Assembly: GCF_014645235.1 (NCBI RefSeq)
Contig: NZ_BMLM01000001.1
Coordinates: 372,001-436,000, forward strand
Source of the DNA: Agrococcus terreus
GTDB lineage: Bacteria > Actinomycetota > Actinomycetes > Actinomycetales > Microbacteriaceae
DNA length: 64,000 nucleotides
Reading direction: 5' to 3'
In this document: one piece after another, positions 1,453 through 8,407 of the stretch
Layout of the letters: every line of letters starts with the position of its first letter
Numbering within the stretch: position 1 is the stretch's first letter
Made by a program: the position numbers and the translations under genes
Notes under the pieces: model-generated
The model's database searches: none
What the model was told of the DNA's origin: nothing
The model's input: the letters and a program-made list of their open reading frames with translations, nothing else

Positions 1453-2769
1453 TCACGTCGCGCCCTCGCGTCGTGCCGCGCCGCGCCCGGCCGCCCTCGC
1501 CGCCTCTTCTCGGCCCAGCACGGCGGCGCCGAGCCCGAGCTGGGCGGCCGCGACGCGGAGCTCGCCGCGCTCGACCGGCGCGAGCGCGTGCGCGAGCACG
1601 TGCACGGCGAGGCGGTGCGCGAGGCGGGTGCGCTCGGCGCCTCCGCTGGCAGTCTCTCCGCTGGCGGTCTCTCCGCCCTGCGGGGCGGGCCCGAGCCAGC
1701 GACCGGCCGCCTCGCCGAGGATCCGGCGGTAGCCGCGCGCGCGGTCCGGGTCGTCCGCGAGCCCGATCGAGGCGACGAGGTGTCCGAGCAGCGCCGCCCG
1801 GTCGTCGACCGGGTCGCCGAGGCCGGCCGTGTCGACGTCGATGAGGCCCGTCACGGCGCTCGCGCCGTCGACGAACAGCTGGCCGACGTGGAGGTCGCCG
1901 TGCACGGTGCGGAGCTCGGCAGCCGGCACCTCGAGCGCCGCGGGGTCGGCGGCGTCGATGCCCGCCTCGAGCGCGCCGAGCGCCGCACGGGCGGCCGCCG
2001 CCTCGCCGCCGGGCGCGCCGTCGAGCGCCGCGCGCAGCCGCTCGCGGTACCAGCCGTCGCGGAGCGCGAGGGAGTCGCGCGCGGCCCGCCCGGTGTCCAC
2101 GCGGCCCATCGCCGCCTGCAGCGCCTCCACCGAGTCGAGCAGCCGCGCGGGGTCGACGGCGTCGAGGCGGGCGGTCACGGGCTCGCCCGCCGCCGCCTCG
2201 GTGAGCACGATGCCGAGCGCCGACCATCCGGTGATCGCCGGCACGGGGATGCCGCCGCCGCGGAGCGCCTCCTGCAGGTCGACGATCGTCGCGGCCGCGT
2301 CGGGCCGCACGACCTTGAGGTACGTCTCGCGCTCGCCCGCGCGCATCCGGAGCATCGCGCGCTTGCCGGGCCGGTAGACCAGCAGCTCGGGCGCCCGATC
2401 GACGGTGACGCCGAGGCGCGCGAGCAGCGCCGCGGCCGCGTCGGGGAAGCTCGCGGCGGCGAGCGCGGGCAGGCGCGGATCGGCCGGGTGCAGCCAGATG
2501 CGCGCCTGGGGCGCCGCGGGGTCGCCGAGCACGAGGCCCGACTCCTCGGGCACCGGACGCCCGGAGGTGTCGACGTACCAGTAGCGGGTCTGCGCCCTCG
2601 CCTCCTCGAAGCCGGCCGTCGTCTCCTCGAAGCCGGTCAACGCGCCGGCGCCGTACGGCTCGCGGCTCAGCACCCGCAGCTCGCCCTCGAGCGCGTCGCC
2701 CAGCGCATCGCGCAGCAGCCGCTCCTCGGGGGATGCGGCGGGCGCCTCGGCGGCGTCGATCGTCTCCAC
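1453..2769 (-). CDS. Phosphotransferase family protein (aminoglycoside/choline kinase-like fold)
   Basis: Product of 438 aa. The catalytic loop VHGDLHVGQLF (HGDLH at residues 290-294) and metal-binding segment LIDVDTAGLGDP (310-321) are typical of the APH/CotH-like kinase fold. A nucleotide-lobe stretch YRPGKRAMLRMR ... YLKVVRP lies around 132-156. The GTG start is supported by TGGGAT six bases upstream, which implies a leaderless transcript. A clear paralogue lies at 7025-8140 with the same HGDLH-GQLF and IDVDTAGLGDP motifs. Substrate is unknown: the family includes antibiotic kinases but also many small-metabolite kinases. There is no sign of a mobile resistance cassette. Confidence 0.75.
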   Translation of the reverse strand: METIDAAEAPAASPEERLLRDALGDALEGELRVLSREPYGAGALTGFEETTAGFEEARAQTRYWYVDTSGRPVPEESGLVLGDPAAPQARIWLHPADPRLPALAAASFPDAAAALLARLGVTVDRAPELLVYRPGKRAMLRMRAGERETYLKVVRPDAAATIVDLQEALRGGGIPVPAITGWSALGIVLTEAAAGEPVTARLDAVDPARLLDSVEALQAAMGRVDTGRAARDSLALRDGWYRERLRAALDGAPGGEAAAARAALGALEAGIDAADPAALEVPAAELRTVHGDLHVGQLFVDGASAVTGLIDVDTAGLGDPVDDRAALLGHLVASIGLADDPDRARGYRRILGEAAGRWLGPAPQGGETASGETASGGAERTRLAHRLAVHVLAHALAPVERGELRVAAAQLGLGAAVLGREEAARAAGRGAARREGAT

Positions 2770-2809
2770 GCACCGATCCCACCAGAGGCGCGGCCGGCGC
2801 GGGGCGAAC

Positions 2810-2836
2810 GTGAGGCTTCTCTCACACAGCCGTCAC
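2810..2836 (+). promoter_or_regulatory. CTCAC/GTCAC repeat pair upstream of the histidine kinase gene
   Basis: CTCAC at 2821-2825 and GTCAC at 2832-2836 are 11 bp apart, and GTGAG at 2810-2814 completes a GTGAG-N6-CTCAC inverted repeat also seen at 947-962 and 1406-1420. The -10 TGGGAT (2854-2859) lies 17 bp after the second repeat, so the geometry differs from the two exported-protein promoters. Possible autoregulation. Confidence 0.4.
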
Positions 2837-2865
2837 GACGCGCCAGGGTCTGGTGGGATGGCCCC

Positions 2866-4473
2866 ATGACCGCCGCCCCTCGATCGCGCCTGCGCACCTG
2901 GACGGTGCGCTCGCGGATCGTGGGCCTCCTCACCCTCCTCAGCTTCGTGGGCCTGTTCGTGGCGGGCGGCGTCGCCTATGTCGTCGAGCGCGAGCGCGTG
3001 CTCGCGCAGATCGACGCGAACCTCGGTGCGGCGCTCGAGTCGGCGAGCATCACGGTCGCGAACGCCGAGGAGCCGTGGGAGTCGGAGGAGGCCGCGCTCG
3101 GGTCGATCGTGCAGCGGCTCGCGCCCGACGACAACACCGGCACGCTCGGCATCATCGACGGGGCGCCCTTCTGGCAGCCGTTCATCCCGCCCGACGTGCC
3201 GCTCGAGCGGCTGCCGGGCTTCGTCGACCGCGTCGTCGCCGAGACCGCCGACGGCGAGATCGTGGTCGGCACGTACGCGAGCGACGACGAGACGGTGCGC
3301 TACCTCGCGGCGCCCGTGACCATCGGCGAGCCCGACCCGGAGGCGCCGAACTCGGCGATCTTCGTCACCGGCTACGACGTGCAGGCCGAGCTCGCGGAGT
3401 TCGACGCCGCCGCCCGCATCTTCACGGTCGTGGCCGTCGTCGTCACGATCGTCATCTTCCTCGTGGGCCTGCTCGTCTCGGGCCTGCTGCTGCGGCCGGT
3501 GCGCCGCATCCGCGAGGTCGCCGAGCGCTCCTCCGAGCAGAGCCTCAGCGAGCGCGTGCCGGTCACGGGCCGCGACGACGTCTCGCAGCTCGCCGAGACC
3601 GTCAACCGCATGCTCGACCGGCTCGGCGGCTCCCTCGACGCCCAGCGACAGCTGCTGCAGGACGTCGGCCACGAGCTGAAGACACCCATCACGATCGTGC
3701 GCGGCCACCTCGAGCTCGTCGACCCGACGGATGCGCGCGACGTCGAGGAGACGCGGGCGCTCGCGATCGACGAGCTCGACCGGATGGCGCGGCTCGTCGA
3801 CGACATCCGCGCGGCCGCGCGCCTGCGCGAGCCCGACGCGTTCGCGATCGTCGAGACCGACGTCGCCGTGCTCGTCGAGCAGATCGCGCAGAAGGCGCGC
3901 GCCATCGAGGGCGCCGACATCGACGACGCGGTGCGCACCGACGACGTGCTCGCGCGCATGGACCCCGACCGCATCACGCAGGCGATGCTCCAGCTCATCG
4001 CCAACGCGGTGCGGCACGCGCGGGGGCCGATCACGATCGGCTCGCGCGTGCGCGGCGCCGACCTCGAGCTGTTCGTGCTCGACCGCGGTCCCGGGGTGCC
4101 GGATGCGCTGAAGGCGGTGATCTTCGACCGCTTCCGCCGCGGCGCCGCCGAGGGCCGCGGCGACGGCGGCTCGGGCCTCGGGCTCGCGATCGTCGCGCTC
4201 ATCGCCGAGCAGCACGGCGGCACCGCGGCGGTCGTCGACGCCGGAGGCGGCTCGGAGTTCCAGATCGTGCTCCCGCGCGCGGTCGTCGGCGCCGACGACG
4301 ACGACCAGCCGACGTGGGTGGCGGCGCTCGCCGAGCCCGCGCCGCCGTCGGCGATCGCCGATCCCGTGGCCCCGCCCGCGACCGCCGACCCCGCGGCGCG
4401 CGCACCGCATCCCCACGACCCGCGCGCCGCGGCGCGCACCGACGCAGAGGAGCCCGGATGGCATCGATCCTGA
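2866..4473 (+). CDS. Sensor histidine kinase (HAMP-HisKA-HATPase)
   Basis: Product of 535 aa. TM1 is at about 17-40 and TM2 at about 185-209, enclosing an extracytoplasmic sensor region of about 145 residues. A HAMP linker follows (about 210-260, LRPVRRIREVAERSS). The phosphoacceptor box is DVGHELKTP with His269. ATPase boxes are QLIANAVRHA, DRGPGVP and GSGLGLAIV. The last 65 residues are a Pro/Ala/Asp tail overlapping the regulator gene by 16 bp. The ATG at 2866 is 6 bases after TGGGAT, so the mRNA is probably leaderless. It pairs with the regulator at 4458-5117. The signal sensed is not evident, although adjacency to two small exported proteins suggests an envelope cue. Confidence 0.9.
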   Translation: MTAAPRSRLRTWTVRSRIVGLLTLLSFVGLFVAGGVAYVVERERVLAQIDANLGAALESASITVANAEEPWESEEAALGSIVQRLAPDDNTGTLGIIDGAPFWQPFIPPDVPLERLPGFVDRVVAETADGEIVVGTYASDDETVRYLAAPVTIGEPDPEAPNSAIFVTGYDVQAELAEFDAAARIFTVVAVVVTIVIFLVGLLVSGLLLRPVRRIREVAERSSEQSLSERVPVTGRDDVSQLAETVNRMLDRLGGSLDAQRQLLQDVGHELKTPITIVRGHLELVDPTDARDVEETRALAIDELDRMARLVDDIRAAARLREPDAFAIVETDVAVLVEQIAQKARAIEGADIDDAVRTDDVLARMDPDRITQAMLQLIANAVRHARGPITIGSRVRGADLELFVLDRGPGVPDALKAVIFDRFRRGAAEGRGDGGSGLGLAIVALIAEQHGGTAAVVDAGGGSEFQIVLPRAVVGADDDDQPTWVAALAEPAPPSAIADPVAPPATADPAARAPHPHDPRAAARTDAEEPGWHRS

Positions 4474-5117
4474 TCGCCGAGGACGAGGCGCGCATCGCCG
4501 CGTTCGTCGAGAAGGGGCTCGCCGCCGCGGGCTTCTCGACCCGCGTCGCCGCGACCGGCCGCGACGCGCTCGACCTCGCGCTCACGGACGAGTTCGACCT
4601 CCTCGTGCTCGACATCGGGCTGCCGGGCATGGACGGCTTCGAGGTGCTGTCGCAGCTCCGCGGCTCCGGCTCGGCGATGCCGGTCATCATCCTCACCGCG
4701 CGCGGCGGCGGCGCCGACACCGTCGCGGGGCTCGAGGGCGGCGCCGACGACTACATGGCCAAGCCCTTCCGCTTCGACGAGCTGCTCGCGCGCATCCGGC
4801 TGCGGATGCAGTCGAGCGCCGCGGGCCAGGGCACCGCCGAGCTGTCGCACCGCGGGCTCGACCTCGACGTGCGCACCCGGCGCGCCCGCATCGACGGCCG
4901 CGAGGTCGACCTCTCGGGCCGCGAGTTCGCGCTCGCCGAGGAGCTCATCCGCCACGCCGGGCAGGTGCTCTCGCGCGAGCAGCTGCTGAGCCGCGTGTGG
5001 GGCTACGACTTCGATCCGGGCTCGAACGTCGTCGACGTCTACGTGCGCTACCTGCGCAACAAGCTGGGCGCCGACCGCATCGAGACGGTGCGGGGGATGG
5101 GCTACCGGCTCGTGTGA
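4458..5117 (+). CDS. OmpR/PhoB-family response regulator
   Basis: Product of 219 aa. The receiver domain has the acidic pocket (AEDE), phosphoacceptor Asp52 in LVLDIGLPGMDG, and the conserved Lys in DDYMAKPFRFDELLAR. The C-terminal winged helix includes LSGREFALAEEL, WGYDFDPGSNVVDVYVRYLR and ETVRGMGYRLV, as in OmpR/PhoB proteins. The ATG at 4458 has AGAGGAG upstream and overlaps the kinase stop by 16 bp, so the two are translationally coupled. Proteins of this type bind direct repeats with 11-bp spacing, which are present upstream of the genes at 337-858, 984-1361 and 2866-4473. Confidence 0.93.
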   Translation: MASILIAEDEARIAAFVEKGLAAAGFSTRVAATGRDALDLALTDEFDLLVLDIGLPGMDGFEVLSQLRGSGSAMPVIILTARGGGADTVAGLEGGADDYMAKPFRFDELLARIRLRMQSSAAGQGTAELSHRGLDLDVRTRRARIDGREVDLSGREFALAEELIRHAGQVLSREQLLSRVWGYDFDPGSNVVDVYVRYLRNKLGADRIETVRGMGYRLV

Positions 5118-5133
5118 GGCGGGCGCCGCAGGA

Positions 5134-5541
5134 TCACGCCGGCAGCAGCTCGGCGACGAGCGCCCGGATGCGCGCCTCGATGTCGTCGCGGATCGGCCGC
5201 ACCGCCTCGATGCCCTGGCCGGCGGGGTCCTCGAGCGCCCAGTCCTCGTAGCGCTTCCCTGGGAAGATCGGGCAGGCGTCGCCGCAGCCCATCGTGATGA
5301 CCACGTCGGACTCCCGCACGGCGTCGACCGTGAGCACCTTCGGCTGCTCGCCGGCGATGTCGATGTCGCGCTCGGCCATCGCCGCGACCGCGACGGGGTT
5401 GATCTGCTCGGCGGGCAGGGAGCCCGCGGAGCGCACCTCGATGCGCTCGCCGCCGATCGCGCGCAGGAAGCCGGCTGCCATCTGGGAGCGGCCCGCGTTG
5501 TGCACGCAGACGAACAGGACGGTGGGGACGGGCTCGGGCAT
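5134..5541 (-). CDS. arsC: Arsenate reductase, low-molecular-weight phosphatase type
   Basis: Product of 135 aa. The P-loop VCVHNAGRS (Cys12-X5-Arg18) is the anion-binding catalytic loop of LMW-phosphatase-type arsenate reductases. MGCGDACP supplies Cys86 and Cys90, and a DPAG segment supplies the general acid. It reduces arsenate to arsenite in the cytoplasm; in actinobacteria such enzymes use thioredoxin or mycothiol/mycoredoxin, and which one applies cannot be told here. The start at 5541 has CGAGGAG upstream. It lies downstream of the micropeptide gene at 5625-5699 and divergent to arsR, which probably represses both. No arsenite efflux gene is in the window. Confidence 0.9.
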   Translation of the reverse strand: MPEPVPTVLFVCVHNAGRSQMAAGFLRAIGGERIEVRSAGSLPAEQINPVAVAAMAERDIDIAGEQPKVLTVDAVRESDVVITMGCGDACPIFPGKRYEDWALEDPAGQGIEAVRPIRDDIEARIRALVAELLPA

Positions 5542-5585
5542 GGCTCCTCGTTCCGGGGCGATGGTCGGTCGTGGTGGGATGGGCT

Positions 5586-5616
5586 GGGCGCTCCCGGATC
5601 CATCCCGGGAGCGCCC
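5586..5616 (-). terminator. Hairpin between the ars micropeptide and arsC
   Basis: Perfect 12-bp arms (GGGCGCTCCCGG at 5586-5597, complement at 5605-5616) enclose a 7-base loop. Placed between the micropeptide stop and arsC, it could end a short transcript or act as a partial terminator that sets the ratio of micropeptide to ArsC. No run of T follows. Confidence 0.55.
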
Positions 5617-5624
5617 GCTCGTGG

Positions 5625-5699
5625 TCAGCAGCAGCAGCTGTCGTCGGCGAGCTCGGCGGGGCAGCCCAGCTCTGCGCAGATCGTGTCGGCGTCCATCAT
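5625..5699 (-). CDS. 24-residue Cys-tailed micropeptide in the arsenic locus
   Basis: A 24-aa reading frame begins MMDADTICAELGC and ends ADDSCCC. It has five cysteines, three of them consecutive at the C terminus. GGAGGAGGG lies directly before the double ATG, and the second ATG (5696) gives a better spacing than the first. It sits immediately behind the ArsR operator region and ahead of arsC on the same strand, so it should be the first gene of the arsenic-induced transcript. The Cys pattern could bind arsenite or another soft metal. I do not recognise a described family; function is inference from Cys content and position. Confidence 0.55.
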   Translation of the reverse strand: MMDADTICAELGCPAELADDSCCC

Positions 5700-5709
5700 C
5701 CCTCCTCCC

Positions 5710-5760
5710 ATCGATGTCTGTCGATGTGGAGTCTGCCTCGACCCATCGACGGATGTCAAT
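5710..5760 (+). promoter_or_regulatory. Probable ArsR operators in the arsR / micropeptide divergent region
   Basis: Two imperfect dyads are seen. ATCGA-N6-TCGAT is at 5710-5725 and ATCGAC-N4-GTCAAT at 5745-5760. They occupy the gap between arsR (start 5782) and the divergent micropeptide/arsC transcript, where an ArsR repressor would need to sit to control both directions. The region is locally AT-richer than its surroundings. Confidence 0.55.
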
Positions 5761-5781
5761 ACGAGTGGCATGATGGTGGCC

Positions 5782-6129
5782 ATGACGATGACCGAGGCGC
5801 CCCTCCCGCAGCTCGAGGCCTGCTGCTCGCCGGTCACGCGCGAGGTGCTCGACGTCGGCGCGGCCGACGAGCTCGCCCGCACCCTCAAGGCGCTCGCCGA
5901 CCCCGCCCGGCTCCGGCTGCTGTCGATGATCGGCGCGCACGAGGACGCGGAGGCGTGCGTGTGCGACCTCACCGATCCGCTCGGCCTCTCGCAGCCCACG
6001 GTCTCGCACCACCTGAAGGTGCTGACCGAGGCCGGGTTCCTCACGCGGTCCACCCGGGGCCGGTGGGCGTACTACCGCCTCGTCGACGGCGCGCTCGCGC
6101 AGGTCGGCGGGCTGCTCGCCGCGCCCTGA
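5782..6129 (+). CDS. arsR: ArsR/SmtB-family metalloregulatory repressor
   Basis: Product of 115 aa. The winged helix includes LARTLKALADPARLRLLSMI, a metal-binding helix with ACVCDL (Cys59, Cys61; the classical ELCVCDL arsenic site), the recognition helix LSQPTVSHHLKVLTEAG, and a wing ending GRWAYYRL. An additional Cys-Cys pair (14-15) near the N terminus is not part of the classical site and might form a third ligand. Start choice is uncertain: in-frame ATGs also occur at 5770 and 5773. The protein should release DNA on binding As(III) or Sb(III) and derepress arsC and the micropeptide. Confidence 0.88.
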   Translation: MTMTEAPLPQLEACCSPVTREVLDVGAADELARTLKALADPARLRLLSMIGAHEDAEACVCDLTDPLGLSQPTVSHHLKVLTEAGFLTRSTRGRWAYYRLVDGALAQVGGLLAAP

Positions 6130-6137
6130 CGTCGAGC

Positions 6138-6218
6138 GGCGCCCGGACGCCGTGCACGCGACGAGGCGCCCGGACGCCGTGCACGCGACGAGGCGGTCGG
6201 ACGCCGCGCACGCGACGA
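6138..6218. repeat. Three tandem 27-bp repeats after arsR
   Basis: Units start at 6138, 6165 and 6192; the first two are nearly identical and the third differs at a few bases. The unit contains GGACGCC, TGCACGCGAC and GAGG. It is non-coding, lies directly after the arsR stop codon and runs into the terminator hairpin. There are no spacers of independent sequence, so this is a simple tandem array. Confidence 0.8.
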
Positions 6219-6247
6219 GGCGCCGCCCCTCTCGGGTGCGGCGCCTC
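6217..6247. terminator. Bidirectional hairpin between arsR and the convergent exported-protein gene
   Basis: Arms GAGGCGCCGC (6217-6226) and GCGGCGCCTC (6238-6247) enclose an 11-base loop. The position between convergent stop codons (6129 plus, 6285 minus) fits a shared terminator. Confidence 0.65.
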
Positions 6248-6284: not shown

Positions 6285-6812
6285 TCAGCGGTTCAGGATG
6301 CCGCCGAGGTCGAGGCCGAGCGAGCCGTCCTCGCCCTCGCCCACGACCACGAGGCCGAGGTCGAGCGAGTCGCTCTCGTCGTCGGCGCCCACGTGGGTGC
6401 CGGCCTGGAGGCTCTCGTCCTCGGTCACGGCGACGGCCTCGCCGCCGGCGTGCACGCCGTCCTCGGTGGCGGCGGCCTCAGCGCCGGCGCCCGCGGCGAT
6501 GTCGTCCGTCGCGGCGCCCGCGCCGGCGGCGGTGCTCACGCCGTCGTCGTTCGCCTGCGCACCGGCGACGGCGTCGATGTCGACGTCCTCGGTCTGCACG
6601 CCCGTGTCGCTCCAGACGTCGAGCGAGTCGTCGGTGGTGCTGACGCCGAGGTCGGTGCCCACCGAGTCGCCGTCCTCGCCCTGGAGCCAGAGGCCGGTCT
6701 TGAGGTCGAGGCCCTCGTCCTCCGCGGCGTTCGCGGCGAAGCCGCCGGTGACGGCGAGGCCGAGGCCCATGAGGCCGGCCGTGGTGATCGTGAGCGTGGT
6801 GCGCTTCTGCAT
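6285..6812 (-). CDS. Acidic exported protein of unknown function
   Basis: Product of 175 aa. Residues 1-30 form a signal peptide (MQKRTTLTITTAGLMGLGLA, then AANAAED as likely cleavage site). The mature part is strongly acidic and rich in Asp, Gly, Ala and Thr, with internal similarity between segments such as TDLGVSTTDDSLDVWSDTGV and AVTEDESLQAGTHV, and it ends LDLGGILNR. No catalytic motif is visible. AAAGGGAACAGC precedes the ATG at 6812, giving a good ribosome site. It may be a secreted calcium-binding or surface-coating protein, but that is only suggested by composition. The 212 bases between this start and the next gene hold its leader and promoter; nothing else was seen. Confidence 0.7.
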   Translation of the reverse strand: MQKRTTLTITTAGLMGLGLAVTGGFAANAAEDEGLDLKTGLWLQGEDGDSVGTDLGVSTTDDSLDVWSDTGVQTEDVDIDAVAGAQANDDGVSTAAGAGAATDDIAAGAGAEAAATEDGVHAGGEAVAVTEDESLQAGTHVGADDESDSLDLGLVVVGEGEDGSLGLDLGGILNR

Positions 6813-8205: not shown

Positions 8206-8398
8206 CCGCTGGTCGAGGAGGCTGCGCCCGCAGGGCGCTGCCGTCTCGAGACCATCCGCAGCGTGGTGGTCTCGAGACGCGGCCGCCTGCGTCGGCAGCT
8301 CCTCGACCAGCGGGGAGGGCGGCAGCTCCTCGACCAGCGGGGAGGGCGGCAGCTCCTCGACCAGCGGGGAGGGCGGCAGCTCCTCGACCAGCGGGGGC
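8206..8398. repeat. Dispersed palindromic repeat plus four tandem 27-bp units
   Basis: The block opens with CCGCTGGTCGAGGAG and the complementary GTCTCGAGACC, then the same element inverted (GTGGTCTCGAGACGC ... GCAGCTCCTCGACCAGCGG). The end of the second element is then amplified: units beginning GGCAGCTCCTCGACCAGCGG start at 8294, 8321, 8348 and 8375, period 27 bp. Related elements occur at 12090, 17192, 21811, 24903, 25144 and 29670. Confidence 0.85.
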
Positions 8399-8407
8399 GG
8401 GAGGGGC

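Follow-up and report, generated by a model that had tools for sequence, protein, structure and literature searches.

Bacterial metallothioneins, among them SmtA/BmtA and the mycobacterial MymT, are short, cysteine-rich proteins under the control of a metal-responsive repressor, and ArsD, an arsenic metallochaperone of about 120 amino acids, is an ars operon product that carries vicinal cysteine pairs and works with ArsA. Cysteine codons can also serve regulation, and polycysteine leaderless short open reading frames (sORFs) are described as attenuators that regulate operons in mycobacteria (Canestrari et al., 2020, described in an excerpt of PMC9094748). In the ars1 operon of Bacillus CDB3, a transcription-attenuating hairpin located between ars genes lowers distal expression, according to the available part of that report (PMC4562236). 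According to the abstract of a 2025 paper, genes for intracellular sequestration have not been found within the ars operon (PMC12093948).

Within the window, by which we mean the whole 64,000-nt stretch of Agrococcus terreus DNA analysed here, the minus strand at 5625-5699 encodes MMDADTICAELGCPAELADDSCCC followed by a TGA stop, a frame of 24 residues with five cysteines and a C-terminal SCCC. An initial annotation had drawn attention to this frame and to its strong Shine-Dalgarno (SD) sequence; the observation is confirmed, as translation bears out the frame and the SD sequence adjoins it (Table 1). The start is probably the second ATG (5696), giving a product of 23 residues, because this codon has the better SD spacing and agrees with the starts of relatives. 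The frame had further been placed first on a transcript shared with arsC and divergent from arsR. The arsR gene is indeed divergent and arsC lies downstream on the same strand, while the peptide-first order is a reading of the locus anatomy and should be taken as probable. The top NCBIfam matches of arsC are arsenate reductases, all under their curated cut-offs. Read by eye from the upstream sequence, a computed sigma-70 site having been set aside, the putative micropeptide promoter is flanked by two operator-like repeats, and a GC hairpin past the stop is a possible leaky terminator; since it stands between the micropeptide and arsC, arsC may be made by read-through alone.

Table 1. Features of the arsenic locus, in positions of the window.
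Feature	Position	Strand	Remark
Cys-rich micropeptide ORF MDADTICAELGCPAELADDSCCC, stop included	5625..5696	-	relatives; codon test in other subgroups
Alternative micropeptide start, one codon further upstream	5699	-	
Micropeptide SD GGAGGAGGG, directly 5' of the ORF	5700..5708	-	score 6/6
Operator-like palindrome CATCGATGTCTGTCGATG, touching the micropeptide SD	5709..5726	.	putative ArsR site
-10 element CAGACT	5730..5735	-	predicted by eye
Second operator-like repeat, over the -35 element; minus strand ATTGACATCCGTCGATG	5744..5760	.	predicted by eye
-35 element TTGACA	5754..5759	-	predicted; 18 nt from -10
GC hairpin GGGCGCTCCCGGGATGGATCCGGGAGCGCCC, 13 bp	5586..5616	-	8 nt past stop; without U-tract
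arsC, arsenate reductase, low-molecular-weight phosphatase fold (LMWPc)	5134..5541	-	downstream of micropeptide
arsC SD AGGAG	5544..5548	-	
arsR, ArsR/SmtB repressor with LEACCSPVTRE thiol motif	5773..6129 (start may be 5770)	+	divergent

Like the metallothioneins, the micropeptide and the relatives described below are short and rich in cysteine (4-10 in 17-27 residues in 30 of 30 peptides), appear to be repressor-controlled and would sequester a thiophilic ion; unlike them, they are half the length or less and belong to an ArsR arsenic unit. They share with ArsD a place in the ars unit and vicinal cysteine pairs, but ArsD is far longer and works with ArsA. Neither a metallothionein model nor an ArsD domain matched among the 20 of 24 micropeptide members that were scanned, the other four being too short, and the same 20 yielded only two weak matches, to keratin in Pfam (E 0.16) and to a sorting domain in NCBIfam (E 0.064). 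Rfam covariance models run on window positions 5100-6200 gave three matches, all under the gathering score, and no known RNA leader. Across Pfam, NCBIfam, PDB and Rfam no family fits, in agreement with the initial annotation, whose author knew of none described. A cysteine-rich micropeptide of ars operons was likewise not found in the titles and abstract openings of open-licence literature, and the main text of a survey of ars genes (PMC6205960) contains neither 'small protein' nor 'peptide'. As for the mycobacterial polycysteine sORFs, to the extent that the excerpt describes them, the likeness lies in an unannotated actinobacterial short ORF rich in cysteine codons that heads an operon; the micropeptide appears to differ from those leaderless frames in its strong SD, a presumably short 5' UTR, selection on residues other than cysteine, its ars context and its occurrence in loci that lack arsC. 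The CDB3 ars1 hairpin resembles ours in lying within an ars operon, as ours does between micropeptide and arsC, but it stands between arsC and arsD and has a U-tract, and the available part of that report describes no micropeptide (PMC4562236).

The initial annotation would have been refuted by a frame that is not conserved in related ars loci, or by substitutions that do not spare cysteine; instead, the frame recurs in the genus and beyond it, and its cysteines are preserved. Homologues at E < 0.1 occur in 8 of 24 Agrococcus genomes, that of the window counted, and the carriers include Agrococcus pavilionensis, A. lahaulensis, A. baldri and two further Agrococcus; a pattern scan of the named genomes retained 5 loci from 46 matches. 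Three more Agrococcus genomes had matches solely above E 1, which we judged to be chance. The eight peptides start with MD, MN or ME, preceded in two by an extra M, and have CxELGCPxEL and a Cys tail in common. Of the 30 Agrococcus arsC loci retrieved, seven have the micropeptide, all of them divergent from an ArsR bearing ACCSP/ACCAP, and 23 are without it; the eighth carrier (G021, locus L007) has no arsC behind the micropeptide. An excerpt of PMC6196244 places arsC and arsR of A. pavilionensis on a 32-kb plasmid, and the 30.6-kb contig of that strain that carries the micropeptide (L072) is probably that plasmid. In another Agrococcus (G015, L092), the arsR belongs to the peptide clade, the micropeptide and its promoter have apparently been deleted, and the match to arsC there is truncated and overlaps the start of arsR.

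We surveyed 90 arsR loci of Microbacteriaceae, namely the 30 best arsR matches and the next 60, reading the strand divergent from arsR for ORFs of 14-40 codons with at least four cysteines and at least five of six SD matches. These criteria were set after the first 30 loci had been seen and while the subsequent 60 were still unseen. A micropeptide (17-27 aa, 4-10 Cys, CC end) was present at 26 of the 90 loci, 14 among the first 30 and 12 among the 60 unseen; within the 90, a few genomes contribute a second locus, and L131 and L133 are identical in ArsR and peptide. The opposite strand was positive at 1 of 90, 40 dinucleotide shuffles gave a mean of 0.05 of 90 with a maximum of 1, and background windows gave 5 of 2242. 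A match at L140 (SD 3 of 6) was judged to be chance. The SD matches at five or six of six positions at all 26 family loci; in 25 of them the distance between the micropeptide start and the extrapolated start of arsR is 72-90 nt, and in one it is 153 nt. Further examples are MNECCDPTVCPPGSEEYCGPGCC, MNGCCDPEEGCCEPGCC and MGCCDTTECQPLPDGSCPPDCC. The 30 peptides that we collected (29 distinct) all end in CC. With 13 genus codes of the family, an orphan copy in G173 counted, and one case outside the order, the reach of the micropeptide is wider than had been proposed.

Cysteines form the most conserved columns across 24 divergent members, C5 being invariant and C18, C22 and C23 present in at least 90% of rows. 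The codons evolve as protein in three subgroups: pooled Nei-Gojobori estimates of pN/pS were 0.23 for six LPDG peptides, 0.21 for four CCDPEEGCC peptides and 0.20 for seven CCDP peptides, the last restricted to the aligned ends. As a wrong-frame control, the LPDG group read in frame +1 gave 1.99; this control was not computable for the CCDPEEGCC group. The Agrococcus subgroup with G173 is uninformative, with a pN/pS of 0.89, few synonymous changes and variable non-Cys residues, and it cannot tell constraint on protein from constraint on DNA because synonymous change is rare there. G173, which belongs to another genus, does differ synonymously at codons for conserved Leu, Cys and Pro residues.

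The putative regulatory signals of the window recur at most other loci. A palindrome of the ATYGA-N6-TCRAT type lies no more than 60 nt upstream of 28 of the 30 peptides, and TTGAC[AG] no more than 110 nt upstream of 27. The palindrome is likewise present at 62 of 64 peptide-less arsR loci, as expected of an ArsR operator, and we infer that it is an ArsR site. A hairpin with 9 or more pairs, starting within 28 nt of the stop, occurs at 25 of 30 peptide loci, against 3.45 expected from shuffles, and begins 2-19 nt after the CC(C)-stop; at two loci with an aquaporin gene it falls inside the aquaporin frame.

The first gene after the micropeptide is arsC at 19 of 26 loci and an aquaporin followed by arsC at two; at the remaining 5 of 26, none of the genes sought was found. 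At the 64 peptide-less loci the first gene is arsC (23), a FAD-dependent oxidoreductase (20), acr3 (16) or another gene (5), so that the micropeptide occurs at 19 of 42 arsC-first loci and at 0 of the 36 in which acr3 or the FAD oxidoreductase comes first. Among arsC-first loci, the arsC match starts 51-166 nt from the arsR anchor (one at 434) without the micropeptide and 182-372 nt with it, as though the micropeptide gene had been gained or dropped in one piece. The two aquaporin loci (L112, L169) have arsR, micropeptide, aquaporin and arsC in series, at about 80-840 nt past the peptide start, with Pfam MIP in both; L112 is a possible fusion, with MIP and arsenate-reductase domains in one open frame. 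At L086, L121 and L007, the next gene that could be recognised lies on the opposite strand, whereas another gene follows in the same direction at L132 (short-chain dehydrogenase) and L091 (CsoR-type repressor). In the latter (G097), the gene for this metal-sensing repressor stands in the place of arsC. The orphan in G173 (L017, about 1500-3078, minus strand) keeps promoter, micropeptide and hairpin intact; no arsR or arsC match is left there at E 0.001, and by eye arsC is reduced to its C-terminal end. The gene upstream of this orphan was first considered a transposase, which we rejected, as Pfam identifies a flavin monooxygenase. FAD-dependent oxidoreductase genes stand divergent from the same type of arsR at, for example, L129, L130 and L166 and the plasmid loci L241 and L317.

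Outside the family the micropeptide is nearly absent. A 24-peptide profile, itself insensitive, gave 9 matches at E <=0.01 in 214 family genomes, eight beside an arsR of the family search from which the 90 loci were drawn and one being the G173 orphan. A first profile, run on 398 genomes of the family, matched 97 of them at E <=1, of which seven, all below E 0.001, were taken as real: five Agrococcus, G173 and G109. Inspection of nine of the next loci (L019-L027) found no comparable ORF. In 396 genomes of the order, the sole confident profile match was the window's own copy, five others at E 0.01-0.05 being taken as chance, and none of 62 arsR loci of the order outside the family has a micropeptide. 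At the level of the class, there was one clear case in 59 arsR loci, ten further loci belonging to the family and not being counted among the 59; another (L209) passed the numeric cut-off but was judged to be chance. The clear case (L215 in G885, outside the order) is MDDCCDDTCTTEDCGTSCC, divergent and 217 nt from the arsR anchor, and is followed by a transposase (Pfam DUF772); it possibly represents an independent origin. A tblastn search of plasmids with one peptide query gave a single weak, irrelevant match. Divergent ORFs with at least three cysteines in five Microbacteriaceae plasmid arsR regions included no family-like peptide, and the annotated neighbour of arsR there, where one exists, is ACR3 or an oxidoreductase that binds FAD or NAD(P). 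On a tree of arsR, built from few columns and with many weakly supported forks, the peptide label needs 7 changes against 22.8 when shuffled (0 of 500 as low), suggesting that the micropeptide travels with its arsR.

The reading that we favour, and hold to be rather probable, is that the micropeptide belongs to the ArsR regulon and is an ArsR-induced, As(III)-binding miniature thiol sink or shuttle. In its favour are the survey counts against their controls, the conserved cysteines, the low pN/pS of three subgroups, the operator-like sites, the neighbouring genes, the orphan that keeps promoter, micropeptide and hairpin, the many carriers without Acr3 and the agreement with arsR phylogeny. ArsR would occupy both operator repeats, the one overlapping the -35 element and the one beside the micropeptide ribosome-binding site, and its removal by As(III) would let the micropeptide be translated first and in the largest amount. 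With its 17-27 residues, its three to five Cys groups and a CC end, the peptide could hold As(III) by three thiols, and its benefit would lie in buffering arsenite inside the cell, including that produced by the ArsC of the next gene. If the hairpin past the stop terminates most transcripts, then, as we propose, the micropeptide would be in excess over ArsC. Against a thiol sink stand the pN/pS of 0.89 in the Agrococcus subgroup, the 23 arsC-first loci that go without the micropeptide and its near absence outside Microbacteriaceae. The functional interpretation of the initial annotation, which had suggested As(III) capture, delivery to a pump or protection of ArsC, is partly supported; a conserved, Cys-preserving micropeptide in an ArsR-type arsenic unit is borne out, and As(III) capture is a candidate role. 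If arsenite is bound by the peptides, sequestration is after all encoded in ars operons and was overlooked because the genes fall under the size limits of annotation. The peptides would then rank among the shortest genetically encoded ones that bind a metalloid, with a natural sequence variety of use for biosensors and remediation. We suggest more tentatively that they form a new class, 'micro-arsenothioneins', the first arsenite-sequestering product of ars operons, by which Microbacteriaceae would tolerate As(III) through thiol trapping, in many species without an Acr3 pump.

The strong link to arsC would equally fit a role specific to ArsC. As a partner of ArsC or an arsenite chaperone and not a sink, the micropeptide might serve ArsC, ArsR or a transporter as a thiol donor, a carrier of a resolving cysteine or a hand-over peptide, and the presence of arsC in 21 of 26 peptide operons, the presence of the micropeptide at 19 of 42 arsC-first loci against none of 36 headed by acr3 or the oxidoreductase, and the two loci where aquaporin and arsC both follow all point that way. 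Protection of ArsC cannot be the sole role, however, since 5 of 26 peptide loci have no arsC in the stretch fetched behind the micropeptide; the orphan copy lacks it too, the 23 arsC-first loci without a peptide do without such help, and the large variation in length (17-27 aa) and spacing is unlike that of a fitted protein partner. On balance we consider a partnership of this kind unlikely.

A regulatory alternative treats the frame as a Cys-codon leader (uORF): as arsenite depletes thiols, Cys-tRNA would run short, and ribosomes stalled at the terminal Cys codons would hold the hairpin open, giving RNA polymerase or ribosomes access to arsC, the peptide itself being inert. The anatomy is right at the 25 of 30 loci where a CC(C)-stop is followed by the hairpin, and this is the best-motivated of regulatory alternatives because such sORFs regulate operons in mycobacteria, as the excerpt citing Canestrari et al. 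(2020) reports (PMC9094748). Of the seven loci where the fetched stretch contains no working arsC behind the micropeptide (the five of 26, L007 and L017), six nevertheless retain the hairpin and L121 has none, so the hairpin seems to be part of the micropeptide gene. Three of these seven have their next recognised gene on the opposite strand, although a leader role may still apply at L132 and L091, where a gene follows in the same direction. Conversely, L084, L106 and L127 have arsC next and no such hairpin. Cysteines are distributed throughout the peptide, non-Cys residues are conserved (CPPEL, LPDGSC, CCDP), and synonymous change occurs at Cys and other codons; these features, like the loci without arsC, tell against a leader, which we consider improbable. 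That the frame is a chance ORF within a conserved regulatory region, as its size below annotation limits, the many spurious frames of GC-rich DNA and the Agrococcus pN/pS might suggest, is largely contradicted by the survey controls, by conservation of frame and cysteines across 13 genus codes and by the low pN/pS (0.20-0.23) of the other subgroups, and we give it hardly any credence.

Delivery to an efflux pump, as the initial annotation had also entertained, is not favoured. No acr3 was found near the micropeptide at the 26 peptide loci (1.5-3.5 kb fetched), and no Acr3 over the curated cut-off was found in the window's genome (99.95% complete), G011 or G022. Among the 31 peptide-bearing genomes checked, 24 are without an Acr3 over the cut-off, two of the 24 being under 90% complete, and outside Agrococcus the count with one is 2 of 23. 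Within Agrococcus, the one genus for which the Acr3 frequency of peptide-less genomes is known, 5 of 8 genomes with the micropeptide and 8 of 16 without it have an Acr3 over the cut-off; given this lack of association, and with acr3 nearby at only 12 of 48 long peptide-less loci, we do not claim that the micropeptide is a general substitute for efflux. ArsB was checked in Agrococcus only. Elsewhere in the window's genome, a distant ArsB-superfamily protein passes the low Pfam ArsB cut-off; it falls far under the NCBIfam ArsB cut-offs, and a citrate transporter model (CitMHS) scores higher.

Two further features of the window were seen by eye. Short direct repeats lie in the intergenic regions at 6130-6220 and 8310-8400, and the minus strand at 6285-6812, between arsR and a phosphotransferase-like gene, encodes an acidic, Ala/Asp-rich protein of secreted appearance.
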